Of a stretch of DNA of 34,876 bases, positions 15,739 to 32,820 are shown piece after piece. Each line of letters opens with the position of its first letter. Within the stretch, counting starts at the first letter, position 1. The stretch is from the IMG/VR virus record IMGVR_UViG_3300020027_000025, positions 1 through 34,876 of that record. One strand, written 5' to 3'. The translations under genes and the position numbers were made by a program. Below the pieces are notes generated by a model. It made no database searches. It was not told the DNA's origin and was given only the letters and a program-made list of their open reading frames with translations. Origin of the DNA: a virus.

Positions 15739-17301
15739 TCACGCGACCCAGTCCCGAGACTCCGAACGCTGAGTCCGGTGGCGCGTCTTCAAAACGAAGT
15801 CCGCGCCGGTGCCCACAGCGTCCAGCACGTCGTCGTGCGCGCCGCGGGGGAACGATAGGGCCTCCTCCTCGAACGGAATCTGTCGGCCGCGCAGCGCCGC
15901 GCGCTTGCGCTGGAAATGGTTCAGGAGCCGGGCGGCCCGGACGGGCTTGGGCTCGCTCTGGGTGATCAGCTCGACCGGCACCGGCATGTCGTGGTACACG
16001 GACAGCCACGTCTCCCCGCCCTGGTTGCACTCGATCAGGATGCGCCGGATCTCCGGGAACCGCTCCAGGATGGACAGCGCCAGCGCGCGGCAGGCGGCAG
16101 GCGGCAGGATCACGGCACGGGTGTGCTCGACCACGGCCATGTGGGCGGAGGGGCTGTAGGCGATCACGGCGAACGCGGTGCGGTCGGAGGTGAGCTTGGA
16201 CGTGGTGGCCGGGTCGATCGACAGCACCGCCTTGGTGATGCCGGTGACTGCCGAGCTGCGCTCACGTGCTTCGGCCAGGTCGTCGCGCGACCAGTAGTCG
16301 CCGGTGCCGGCGGGGAGGTTGCGGAAGTTCTTCTGGTACTGCCGGGTGTGTCGGATGGACGCCAGGAATTCCATGCTCCAGCGTGCCGGCCAGCACGACC
16401 GCTCGGTGCCGTCCGGCTCGACCACGATGGGCGGGTGGTAGTTGACCGTCCAGCTCTCCTCGGCGATCCACGACGCCGGCTCCTCGCCGGGCTCCAGGAC
16501 GGTCTTGACGAGTTGGTGCACGATCGAGCCGACCATGGTGGTGGTGCCGCACAGCACGACGCGGGCGAACGCGTTCAGCGGCATGATCGAGTCGGTGAGG
16601 GCGATGAGGCGCTGCCCGGCCTGGTAGGCGGAGTAGGTCTCTTCACCAGGTTCGACGTCATCGAGAAGGATCTTGTCCGGTCGGCGCTTGCCGACCTTCA
16701 TGCCCAGGTTGCCCTCATCGATTCCCTTGGCACCAAAGACAAAGCCGTTGGCCTGAATGGTCAGCTTCTTGTTGTCGCTAATCCGGCGCTTCTCGGTGAG
16801 CCGCTCCTGGGGCGCGCACAGTCCGGGGAAGTCCTTACGTAGCAACATGTTCCGGTCCAGTTCACCCTTGAACGTCTGGAGGTGCATCTGCGCTTGAGGT
16901 CCAGAGTCGGCGAACGCGGCGATGAACTTGGCGTGGCCGTGCGCCCCTGCCCACATTGGGATGATCAGGAACCACCACGTGGTCTTGCCGGTGTTGCGTG
17001 GCGCGACCTCGGCAGTCCGGTGCGCGTTCGGCGCGGTGACGGGTCGGAACCACTCCCGTGCCTCGCGTGCCCAGGCCAGGTGCATGTCGCCGATGGTGAT
17101 CCGGTTGTCGGTCTCGTCGGACCGGAGGTGGTCCTTGAGGTAGACCACGGCGAACAGCAACGGGTCCGTGAGGGTGAGCGCGCGCCGGCCGGCGGGATCG
17201 GTGAGCAGGCGCGCGTCGAACTGCGCGAACCAGGCATCGTAGTCGAACGTCGCGGCGGTGGCGGCAGGGTCGTAGGGGTCGGTCAACTTGGGGGTTGTCA
17301 T
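15739..17301 (-). CDS. terL: Terminase large subunit
   Basis: This 520-residue ATPase-nuclease packages DNA into the head. Visible motifs are Walker A APRNTGKTT at residues 100-108, Walker B KILLDDVE at 210-217 with a following Glu, the coupling CGTTT near 250, and a nuclease domain with SIDPATT near 364, IECNQGG near 440 and HDDVLDA near 500 as the acidic metal-binding residues. The ATG at 17301 has no ribosome site, and its codon is overlapped by the -35 box of a rightward promoter (17295-17300). Gene order to portal is normal. The small subunit lies 2 kb away rather than adjacent. Confidence 0.95.
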   Translation of the reverse strand: MTTPKLTDPYDPAATAATFDYDAWFAQFDARLLTDPAGRRALTLTDPLLFAVVYLKDHLRSDETDNRITIGDMHLAWAREAREWFRPVTAPNAHRTAEVAPRNTGKTTWWFLIIPMWAGAHGHAKFIAAFADSGPQAQMHLQTFKGELDRNMLLRKDFPGLCAPQERLTEKRRISDNKKLTIQANGFVFGAKGIDEGNLGMKVGKRRPDKILLDDVEPGEETYSAYQAGQRLIALTDSIMPLNAFARVVLCGTTTMVGSIVHQLVKTVLEPGEEPASWIAEESWTVNYHPPIVVEPDGTERSCWPARWSMEFLASIRHTRQYQKNFRNLPAGTGDYWSRDDLAEARERSSAVTGITKAVLSIDPATTSKLTSDRTAFAVIAYSPSAHMAVVEHTRAVILPPAACRALALSILERFPEIRRILIECNQGGETWLSVYHDMPVPVELITQSEPKPVRAARLLNHFQRKRAALRGRQIPFEEEALSFPRGAHDDVLDAVGTGADFVLKTRHRTQRSESRDWVA

Positions 17302-17335
17302 GGTGTGTCCAGGTATGTCATACTAGTCCCATGAC
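17293..17335 (+). repeat. Promoter cassette repeat, copy 1
   Basis: A 43-base segment ending in the first bases of the 17331 gene matches 17548-17590 at 37 of 43 positions by direct comparison. Both copies carry -35, spacer, -10 and start codon, so this is a duplicated promoter-plus-start unit. Confidence 0.8.
17295..17324 (+). promoter_or_regulatory. Promoter for small gene 17331, leaderless type
   Basis: TTGTCA (17295-17300) and CATACT (17319-17324) are separated by 18 bases. The ATG at 17331 is 7 bases after the -10 end, so the transcript probably begins at the start codon. Words TGTCA, TGTCC and TGTCA begin at 17296, 17306 and 17316, exactly 10 bp apart on one helix face. Confidence 0.72.
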
Positions 17336-17495
17336 CGAAACACAGTGGGACGCCAGCCGATACGACGCATGCCGGGCAGTGCTCGTGGATCTCGACACCG
17401 CGCTGATTCAGCGGATGATCGATGCCGGAGTCGCCGGCACACCCGAGGGAGTCAAGGCCATCGCCGACGAGATGGCGATCCGAAAGAGCCGCTGA
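17331..17495 (+). CDS. Small moron-like protein between terL and MuF genes
   Basis: The 54-residue product (MTETQWDASRYDACRAVLVD at the start, ending DEMAIRKSR) looks fully helical, acidic in the middle and basic at the end. I do not recognise it. It is transcribed opposite to the late operon around it, has its own promoter with the ATG at the predicted transcript start, and ends before a strong terminator at 17510-17535. This is the layout of a moron, a separately expressed gene often active in lysogeny or early infection. The first codons are the same in outline as those of the neighbouring 17586 gene, but the proteins are unrelated. Confidence 0.75.
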   Translation: MTETQWDASRYDACRAVLVDLDTALIQRMIDAGVAGTPEGVKAIADEMAIRKSR

Positions 17496-17509
17496 TCCTC
17501 CAGCACTCC

Positions 17510-17535
17510 AGCCCCGGCCAACTGGCCGGGGCTTT
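17510..17535 (+). terminator. Terminator after small gene 17331
   Basis: The arms AGCCCCGGCC (17510-17519) and GGCCGGGGCT (17524-17533) form a perfect 10-bp stem with a 4-base loop, followed by TTG. This is a good intrinsic terminator for the rightward gene. Confidence 0.8.
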
Positions 17536-17547
17536 GTGCTGCCAGGG

Positions 17548-17590
17548 GGTTGTCCTGGTATGTCCCGGTATGGCACACTAGTCTCATGAC
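17548..17590 (+). repeat. Promoter cassette repeat, copy 2
   Basis: This is the second copy of the 43-base promoter unit seen at 17293-17335, matching at 37 of 43 positions. The -10 region and the spacer are the most conserved in layout, and the start codon is at the same place. Confidence 0.8.
17550..17579 (+). promoter_or_regulatory. Promoter for small gene 17586, leaderless type
   Basis: TTGTCC (17550-17555) and CACACT (17574-17579) are 18 bases apart, and the ATG at 17586 begins 7 bases after the -10 end. TGTCC words begin at 17551 and 17561 with TGGCA at 17571, again 10 bp apart. Confidence 0.7.
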
Positions 17591-17798
17591 CTACCAGGAC
17601 GACCCGTACCGCAAGGGCGATGCCGCGAAACTGCTCAAGAAACAGATGCGAGAGCTTGCCGCAAAGAACGCCAAGGCCAAGCGGGAGCGTGCGCGCAAGG
17701 TGGCGGAGCAGGCTGGAGAGACAGAGTTCTACTGCCTGGAGTGCAAGAACGTGGGGAAGCGCGGCAAGGGTTGCGGCACCTGCGGTGCCAAGTCCTGA
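17586..17798 (+). CDS. Small zinc-ribbon-like moron protein
   Basis: The 70-residue protein has a strongly basic helical first half (residues about 10-45, rich in Lys, Arg, Ala) and a C-terminal CLEC...CGTC pattern with four Cys at about 51, 54, 64 and 67. Together they suggest a zinc ribbon with nucleic-acid-binding helices. The specific role is unknown. Like its neighbour it has its own promoter and runs against the surrounding late genes, and a perfect stem-loop (17815-17843) follows its stop. Confidence 0.78.
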   Translation: MTYQDDPYRKGDAAKLLKKQMRELAAKNAKAKRERARKVAEQAGETEFYCLECKNVGKRGKGCGTCGAKS

Positions 17799-17803
17799 CC
17801 TGA

Positions 17804-18679
17804 TCACGGCCCACCACCCGACCCGTCCGGCACGGGTCGGGTGAACGTGTCTCCGGCCTGGAGCCGGCGGCGCGCGTCCGCCTTGACTGACTTCGGCGCA
17901 TTCACCCCCGAGGACAGCAGCGACTCCGCGGCACGGCGTCGTGCTGCCTGCCCCTCGGTGTCGAGAGCCCACCCCTTGAGGATCGAACGGTCGGCCTCGC
18001 GCTTCAACGCGAGGCTGGCCTCCTCGCTGTCCCCGCGCGTCACCAACTGCAACTCGCACCGGCAGTGCGGGTGGAGCGGCGGGGAGGCGACCGGGTCGGC
18101 GTCGGTGGTGTCGCCGGCCGGGTCGTAGCTGAGGCCGCCGGGGAAATGATCACCGGGCCGGAGCAGGCGCATGCCGGCGTAGCGCAGGCAGCGCACGCAC
18201 GCGTCCCGCTCCGGCACCCACATGGCCACCTTGGACGGCGAACGGCGCGCCCGGTCGAGCACGGCGGCGTTGGCCTTGCCCACTTCGTGGTCGGAGATCA
18301 CGCCCTCCAGGCCCTTGACGAGGAGGGCGGCCTGCGCGACCACGATCAGCGCGCTGGCCAGGCTGGGCCGCTCGGCACCGAGCAGTGCCGCGGTGAACTC
18401 CCGCATTCGGCCCGTCCGGTAGGCCAACGTCTCCTGTGCCGCCTCCCGGATGGATCGGCCGGTCTCGGTGACCGCCACGGCGGTGGCGGCGCTCATGGCC
18501 CGGATGAGCTGGTCCACGATGGCGGTCAGCTCAGGGCCGGCGAGGCTCGCCGGGTTGATCGCCATGCCGGCCAGCCGCTTGCGGATCCGCTCCACGAGGT
18601 CGAGCAGCTCCCCGCCCGCCAGCCTGGTCCGTTCCTGGATCAGGTCGGCGAGCGCGTCGTGGTGCCGGGGGGCGGTCAC
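17804..18679 (-). CDS. MuF-like minor head protein
   Basis: The 291-residue product fits the phage Mu gpF / head morphogenesis family. Its hallmark is in the middle: DACVRCLRYAG at about 159-169 followed by SPPLHPHCRCEL at about 200-211, matching the C-x-x-C plus H-x-x-C-x-C pattern. The N-terminal 150 residues are helical. The protein probably sits inside the head near the portal, and relatives are sometimes ejected or carry effector domains, though none is seen here. The GTG at 18679 overlaps the stop of the upstream 57-residue gene by GTGA. It is separated from terL by the two rightward small genes. Confidence 0.85.
   Translation of the reverse strand: MTAPRHHDALADLIQERTRLAGGELLDLVERIRKRLAGMAINPASLAGPELTAIVDQLIRAMSAATAVAVTETGRSIREAAQETLAYRTGRMREFTAALLGAERPSLASALIVVAQAALLVKGLEGVISDHEVGKANAAVLDRARRSPSKVAMWVPERDACVRCLRYAGMRLLRPGDHFPGGLSYDPAGDTTDADPVASPPLHPHCRCELQLVTRGDSEEASLALKREADRSILKGWALDTEGQAARRRAAESLLSSGVNAPKSVKADARRRLQAGDTFTRPVPDGSGGGP
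17815..17843. terminator. Stem-loop between convergent genes
   Basis: The arms CACCCGACCCGT (17815-17826) and ACGGGTCGGGTG (17832-17843) form a perfect 12-bp stem with a 5-base loop. It lies 17 bases after the rightward 17586 gene and inside the 3' end of the leftward MuF-like gene, so it may act as a bidirectional terminator. Confidence 0.65.
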
Positions 18680-25666: not shown

Positions 25667-25864
25667 TTATGCCTGGACCTTGCCGGCCAGGAACTTGGTC
25701 AGCTGGGCACGGGAGACCCGGAGCCGGTTGACCTGGCCGGTGTAGCGGGTCAGGTGCCCATCCGAGACCCACCGGCCGATCGTGCGCGGGGTGACCCCGG
25801 CCAGCTTGGCGGCGTCCGCCTTGGACAGGGAGTCCTCCGGCGCGAGCTGTTTGCGCGGTGCCAT
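25667..25864 (-). CDS. Excisionase/MerR-like HTH DNA-binding protein
   Basis: The 65-residue protein is a small winged HTH of the excisionase or MerR-like type: SKADAAKLAGVTPRTIGRWV at about 14-33 is the helix-turn-helix, and DGHLTRYTGQVNRLRVSRAQ at about 35-54 is the wing and second strand. The ATG at 25864 has GGAGG 8 bases upstream. A GTG at 25873 in the same frame lies too close to that site. It is the first gene of the leftward replication arm, so it may be an early regulator or act at an origin. Excision is only possible if an integrase exists outside the window. Confidence 0.82.
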   Translation of the reverse strand: MAPRKQLAPEDSLSKADAAKLAGVTPRTIGRWVSDGHLTRYTGQVNRLRVSRAQLTKFLAGKVQA

Positions 25865-25914: not shown

Positions 25915-25943
25915 ACCATACCCGCTCACCTGGATCATGTCCA
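25915..25943 (-). promoter_or_regulatory. Leftward promoter of replication arm
   Basis: On the minus strand TGGACA (25943-25938) and TATGGT (25920-25915) are 17 bases apart. The -35 box is itself a copy of the TGTCC word read in reverse. The predicted start near 25908 gives a leader of about 45 bases before the HTH gene. Confidence 0.7.
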
Positions 25944-25946
25944 GCA

Positions 25947-25975
25947 TTGACACACTTTGTCCCAGTGTGTAGTGT
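25947..25975 (+). promoter_or_regulatory. Rightward promoter of helicase/nuclease arm
   Basis: TTGACA (25947-25952) is perfect and TAGTGT (25970-25975) follows after 17 bases. A TGTCC word lies in the spacer at 25958. The leader to the ATG at 26022 is about 40 bases and contains repeated GAGAA acting as ribosome site. Confidence 0.78.
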
Positions 25976-32558: not shown

Positions 32559-32577
32559 CCGGGTACGTGTCCCGGTA

Positions 32578-32606
32578 TTGACATGGTTTGTCCAGGGGCG
32601 TAGCGT
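32578..32606 (+). promoter_or_regulatory. Promoter for small gene 32614, leaderless type
   Basis: A perfect TTGACA (32578-32583), a 17-base spacer and TAGCGT (32601-32606) precede the ATG at 32614 by 8 bases, so the transcript should begin at or near the start codon. TGTCC words begin at 32568 and 32589, with TGACA at 32579, spaced 11 and 10 bp. Confidence 0.78.
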
Positions 32607-32613
32607 CGAGCCC

Positions 32614-32820
32614 ATGACCACACGAACCCACTGCGAGCAGCTCACCGATCACCTGGCCCACCCGGTCACGTTCGGCCGCAACCAGCTGCAGCTCTACCGG
32701 TGCCCCGGTCGGTTCACCCCGTCCGCGCACCGGCCGCCGGGTCCGAAGCTCAAGCACGCCATGGATTCGGACCCGTTCGCCGGGGTCGACTCCGACGCTG
32801 CTCCGTCCATCTGGGACTGA
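32614..32820 (+). CDS. Small protein with own leaderless promoter
   Basis: The 68-residue product (MTTRTHCEQLTDHLAHPVTF at the start) is unrecognised. It has one Cys near 7 and another near 30, a His-rich first third, a Pro and Arg containing middle, and an acidic end. No ribosome site precedes the ATG, fitting a leaderless message. It resembles the other two isolated small genes (17331, 17586) in promoter layout and in starting ATGAC. A strong stem-loop lies 85 bases after the stop. Confidence 0.68.
   Translation: MTTRTHCEQLTDHLAHPVTFGRNQLQLYRCPGRFTPSAHRPPGPKLKHAMDSDPFAGVDSDAAPSIWD

Follow-up and report, generated by a model that had tools for sequence, protein, structure and literature searches.

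Two nearly identical promoters, each leading directly into a small gene, adjoin the late genes of a phage next to its gene for the large terminase subunit, and the locus raises the question of what these small genes are and what might read the short TGTC words that recur in their promoters once per helical turn. The window, which is the whole stretch of DNA analysed, is IMG/VR virus record IMGVR_UViG_3300020027_000025 (34,876 nt, 67% GC); in a terminase search the isolates closest to it, with about 45% protein identity, were phages of Streptomyces and Microbacterium. The answer that we favour, with moderate confidence, is that the small genes are moron-like leaderless cassettes which form, together with an early promoter, one regulon bound head-to-tail by a small helix-turn-helix (HTH) protein, likely a repressor. 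The features on which the argument draws are listed in Table 1.

Table 1. Positions of the cassette, early-promoter and HTH features in the window, and of the terminase-portal words in Arthrobacter phages
Feature	Position	Strand	Details
Large terminase subunit (terL)	15739..17301	-	ATG at 17299-17301
Cassette promoter 1	17295..17330	+	-35 TTGTCA 17295-17300; words 17296/17306/17316
Cassette promoter 1, extended -10	17316-17324	+	TGT-CATACT; 6-nt gap, then ATG 17331
Small ORF 1	17331..17495	+	54 aa; without family match; predicted leaderless
Hairpin after ORF 1	17510..17533	+	GC-rich, terminator-like, short U tail, z -6.3
Cassette promoter 2	17550..17585	+	TTGTCC; words TGTC 17551, TGTC 17561, TGGC 17571
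Cassette promoter 2, -10	17574-17579	+	CACACT; ATG at 17586
Small ORF 2	17586..17798	+	70 aa; CxxC pairs, zinc-ribbon-like; predicted leaderless
Hairpin after ORF 2	17815..17843	+	within 3' end of convergent gene 17804-18679
BldC/excisionase-type HTH_17 protein	25667..25864	-	65 aa; proposed binder of phased words
Early-operon promoter	25938..25975	+	words TGTC 25938, TGAC 25948, TGTC 25958
Early-operon promoter elements	25947-25952; 25970-25975	+	-35 TTGACA; -10 TAGTGT
Cassette promoter 3	32578..32613	+	TTGACA, middle word TGTCC, TAGCGT, ATG 7 nt on
Small ORF 3	32614..32820	+	68 aa; G001 homologue 46% over 69 aa
Terminase-portal gap words, Noely	L332 2476-2502		
Terminase-portal gap words, Idaho	L333 2309-2335		
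Terminase-portal gap words, Corgi	L334 2498-2531		
Terminase-portal gap words, Whytu	L335 1855-1906		

A sequence-only reading of this DNA had proposed that two 43-base segments (17293-17335 and 17548-17590) match at 37 positions and that each carries a -35, a -10 and an ATG. The repeat search returned the same 37/43 identity, with the repeat extending over 17290-17336 and 17545-17591 (87% match) and the copies spaced 255 bp apart, and the three elements were located in both segments (TTGTCA, CATACT and 17331; TTGTCC, CACACT and 17586), the A of the ATG being the seventh base past the -10, as had been stated. The 26-base consensus of the two copies matches these two places only and gave no match in 100 shuffled windows. 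A promoter scanner called copy 1 as TTGTCA-18-CATACT with TG ahead of the -10, and this promoter is kept in three related records. The accompanying claim, that TGTC(C/A)-like words begin every 10 bp in both copies, held as well, with TGTC at 17296, 17306, 17316, 17551 and 17561 and TGGC at 17571. The window has 2 word triples at period 10, compared with 0.06 for Markov-1 sequences. Word 1 falls on the -35 and word 3 on the extended -10; thus, part of the phasing is explained by promoter structure, which leaves as independent evidence for an operator only the middle word and, in the early promoter, the additional word upstream. The first word of cassette 1 also overlaps the terL start codon, in the opposite orientation.

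A moron is an additional gene set between late genes and equipped with a promoter and a terminator of its own. Both small ORFs lie on the strand opposite to the late genes, each flanked by its own promoter and a terminator-like hairpin, and cassettes with differing ORFs are variably present between conserved genes in the relatives described below. In contrast to morons, however, there are several in series here, on the opposite strand, predicted to be leaderless and with a common operator-like promoter. Homologue searches with ORFs 1 and 2 found none, and the family search with ORF 2 gave no significant match. We propose that each unit would comprise a sigma-70 promoter (TTGWCA, 18 bp, extended -10 TGT-CATACT), a small ORF and a GC-rich hairpin, such units being placed next to the large terminase gene and up against the late genes.

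As a check on the sequence-only reading, it had been asked whether related phages keep the phased words, and the pattern is indeed kept in the three IMG/VR records found by the terminase search, G001 (80% terminase identity), G002 and G003 (both 77%). Since G002 and G003 are near-identical, they were counted as one. In these relatives the unit consists of a promoter, a predicted leaderless small ORF and a hairpin; the same terminase-side gap holds two cassettes in G001, three in G002 and four in G003, with differing ORFs, and more copies are found elsewhere. The middle word reads TGTC in every one of 13 distinct cassettes (13/13), with different neighbouring spacer bases, and each has an ORF of 54-114 aa behind the ATG. 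This ATG begins 36 bp past the start of the -35 in 12 of the 13 and 37 bp in the other, in which the -10 also appears shifted by one, and the 6 bases that precede it are variable in sequence and nearly constant in length. A common TTVWxxDGPxWS tail is found in cassette ORFs of G001 and G003. Triples of TG[A/T]C at period 10 number 2, 5, 6 and 9 in the four records, where 0.05-0.11 would be expected from a Markov model, and just 0-2 at other periods from 6 to 15; those listed at period 10 are all at cassette-type promoters or the early promoter.

The stated lack of a ribosome site also gained support, no clear Shine-Dalgarno (SD) sequence being found near either ATG and anti-SD pairing being weaker than for other window genes. 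In the 13 cassettes the ATG lies 6-7 nt past the -10 and SD pairing is weak, with a median of -4.9 kcal/mol versus -8.1 for the other window genes (p=0.01), although it is not missing in every one. As the ATG falls at the predicted transcription start, the mRNA would be leaderless. In mycobacteria, about one quarter of transcripts are leaderless, and a 5' ATG or GTG is all that their translation requires (PMC4633059); thus, if the host is actinobacterial, the 36-bp promoter-operator block could express any ORF recombined behind it. The start-associated sequences of Cluster K phages are ribosome-site-like and lie 3-7 bp before the start codon (PMC3203893). No GGGATAGGAGCCC-type motif is found at that distance here, the 6 bases ahead of the ATG showing no conservation.

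The cassettes differ even between very close relatives. Over their aligned blocks G002 and G003 share about 99.97% identity, and at this locus they are one cassette of exactly 255 bp apart, which is present in G003 and missing from G002. The break falls within the promoter and the remaining G002 promoter is a hybrid of the two G003 promoters, a difference that matches the expectation for recombination between promoter repeats. Assembly collapse is a less likely source, given that the repeats are exact over only about 30 bp. In G001, between two cassettes (L084 12937-13080), a terL-like start (MTTPNLTDPYDPAA) is joined to a gp17804-like 3' end, a fusion that bears the mark of tandem duplication. 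On the favoured reading, cassettes multiply, swap ORFs and get lost via recombination at the repeated promoter and hairpin. A length of exactly 255 bp is common to three cassettes whose ORFs are dissimilar (window 17295-17550; L088 4294-4549 and 4549-4804). A 66-base stretch of G002 matches both ends of G003 (1-66 and 36384-36449), which suggests that the latter is a complete genome, circularly permuted or circular, of about 36.4 kb.

A third, weaker copy of the promoter (32573-32619), likewise ending in CCCATGACC, is located past a glycosyltransferase gene in the window, with counterparts in G001 (35110) and G003 (20085). Phased words are also present in the intergenic promoter between the HTH and helicase genes, where TGTC, TGAC and TGTC follow one another at 10-bp steps in all relatives. 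Relative to the cassettes, the words of this early promoter stand one step upstream and span about -45 to -25, at about -45, -35 and -25, with the extra word 5' of the -35 in all relatives. The gene downstream has a leader with an SD sequence. Since the early promoter combines words with an SD leader, the words go with regulation and not with leaderless starts, and a part for them in leaderless translation was rejected.

If the words are an operator common to the cassettes and the early promoter, one per helical turn, the most likely binder would be the 65-aa BldC/Xis-type protein encoded at 25667-25864. This protein had been suggested as a candidate in the sequence-only reading, and the choice gained support in two ways: its gene is divergent from the phased-word early promoter in all relatives, and phages picked solely by homology to it often have phased TGTC arrays. 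It matches HTH_17 (PF12728) at 31.8 bits against a curated cut-off of 27, and its identity in relatives is 62% and 51%. The nearest solved relative, a weak one, is BldC (6ama, E 0.011; also 6amk); the AlphaFold model (pLDDT 62) was too poor for a structure search. Streptomyces BldC forms head-to-tail multimers on direct repeats, which it reads with Arg30, and this arginine is kept as R31. However, BldC recognises AT-rich repeats of 9 bp, AATTXXXX(C), whereas the words here are TGTC at 10 bp, and the residue aligned with the wing His46 of BldC is Asn, so that the protein does not qualify as BldC proper.

We suggest that the HTH protein would assemble head-to-tail on one face of the DNA and cover the region from -35 to -10, so that rising levels of it would jointly repress the cassette promoters and the early promoter. 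As the words overlap the -35 and the -10, blocking is the simplest effect, and it is this position that points to repression. There is a parallel in phage 186, in which Apl represses early promoters and recognises direct repeats 10-11 bp apart (PMC7498355). Like Apl, P2 Cox and lambda Xis, the candidate would be a small winged-HTH protein cooperative on one-turn direct repeats; unlike them, it is found without an integrase or resolvase in the four records, with TGTC words, and with promoters of predicted leaderless small genes among its putative targets. Searches of G000-G003 for PF00589 and PF00239 gave no match, in records that may be incomplete, and no integrase partner at an att site, as a recombination directionality factor would have, was found in them. 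Thus, a role in excision is unlikely, unless the integrase lies outside the records.

The association of words and protein was examined in a phage set collected by homology to the window HTH protein or its Noely homologue only. Period-10 triples are present in Noely, Idaho, Whytu, Raela, PD0307 and contig L095, whereas Corgi and Piku have an HTH homologue and pairs but no triple, and the partial loci L096-L099 have a homologue but no triple. No period-10 triple was found in 310 kb of comparison phages and terminase-relative loci, nor in 642 kb of control loci partly overlapping that set. Among all pairs at periods 6-15, those at period 10 were 5/84 in controls, where they show no enrichment, versus 31/99 (Fisher p=1e-5, which is optimistic because genomes within a cluster are not independent). 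Pair counts from control loci L022-L083, whose retrieval pattern contained one word pair, are biased and are not those given here; their triple counts are less affected. The words follow the HTH family across host genera, namely Arthrobacter, Mycobacterium and Oceanospirillum. In Oceanospirillum phage PD0307, which has a gammaproteobacterial host, a TGTC triple (L337 43325-43355) lies directly 5' of the HTH_17 gene; L095 has two arrays, one running over the end of the HTH gene and the other about 700 bp off, and about 10 kb separates the array from the HTH gene in Noely and Idaho. A locus found by its array, L108, shares with the window the order HTH, array, helicase, and the two helicases are 50% identical. 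A profile search for HTH genes near arrays was borderline (p=0.05), a search near arrays for the motif R/K-T-V/I/L-x-R/K-W was negative, and four-word TGTC arrays in viral contigs showed no clear excess over the reversed word among the matches listed. More tentatively, and with rather less than even confidence, it could be proposed that these phages represent a widespread class of regulator, in which an excisionase-type HTH protein of integrase-less phages coats one-turn-spaced TGTC words as a genome-wide switch and the operator-promoters double as seams for the exchange of leaderless genes.

Other readings of the phased words must be weighed. The repeats could be strong sigma-70 promoters alone, with the middle word a relic of recent duplication and no dedicated binder. 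TTGTCA-18-CATACT with TG before the -10 does score as a promoter and words 1 and 3 coincide with its elements, but the reading is at odds with a middle TGTC kept in 13 of 13 cassettes despite differing spacer bases and ORFs, with the added word 5' of the early -35 in all relatives and with the phased arrays in HTH-bearing phages of other groups. We regard it as unlikely, if the least so of the alternatives. Also unlikely, and ranked below it, is that the words are a lambda CII-like activator site that turns on the cassettes and early genes. One-turn direct repeats at the -35 recall CII, whose repeats have the form TTGCN6TTGC, and the early-promoter words stand at about -45, -35 and -25. The direct repeats of CII straddle the -35 (PMC3335776). 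The cassette words, however, reach into the -10, and a protein sitting there should obstruct polymerase; moreover, the -35 and extended -10 look sufficient unaided, and the best-matching protein family is BldC/excisionase-like, not CII.

That a host regulator, rather than the phage HTH protein, reads the words seems improbable: bacterial genomes scanned with the strict motif gave no match in Actinobacteria, and the words track the phage HTH family over the three host genera. The same scan gave scattered matches outside Actinobacteria, with ATG or GTG correctly placed in 2 of about 40, which were taken as background, and the 47-bp promoter consensus had no match in isolate phages. Least probable is a reading in which the units are repeats or RNA elements with an incidental ATG and the small ORFs are no real genes. 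The lack of a family match or homologue for ORFs 1 and 2 would fit such elements, yet the -10/ATG distance is near-constant in 13 cassettes, each with an ORF of 54-114 aa, ORF 3 is kept in G001, and the TTVWxxDGPxWS tail is common to cassette ORFs of G001 and G003.

Precedents exist for each ingredient of the favoured reading, in phage 186 Apl, in BldC and in the leaderless promoters of Cluster O. In Cluster O (Corndog) phages, SigA promoters are predicted to be leaderless, PL2 serves an opposite-strand gene in the structural operon, and genes are lost through recombination between repeats; however, their 17-bp repeats are palindromic and mostly away from promoters, with no phased words described in the part of that report drawn on here (PMC4351075). 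Like the words, Cluster K start-associated sequences and Cluster A stoperators are short asymmetric repeats near small-gene starts or regulatory DNA, but stoperators are 13-bp sites and neither is described as phased triplets (PMC3203893). What is new here is the combination, the TGTC word and its association with one HTH type in phages of three host genera. If the proposal is correct, a common type of phage HTH protein that is annotated as excisionase or MerR-like and for the most part uncharacterised would gain both an operator word and a candidate binder, and regulons would become predictable from sequence in the cultured phages Noely, Idaho, Whytu, Raela and PD0307. Small genes would be traded as plug-in units that need about 39 bp for the start codon, operator and promoter together and no ribosome site, and the near-identical G002/G003 pair would be a snapshot of one cassette gained or lost.

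Some further observations were made on the words and the window. Tandem TGTC words 10 bp apart are found in the terminase-portal gap of the Arthrobacter phages Noely, Idaho, Corgi and Whytu. In Mycobacterium phage Raela, TGTCNNGCATTGTCAA-like pairs (L342 42784, 44519, 45307 and 45879) recur in intergenic positions and around the gap between divergent right-end genes. In L138, L161, L180, L187, L190 and L204, phage contigs unrelated to the window, four-word TGTCC arrays occur in convergent pairs, at a spacing of about 60-110 bp. Finally, positions 564-1187 of the window, at the tail-gene end, encode a collagen-like GXY-repeat protein.
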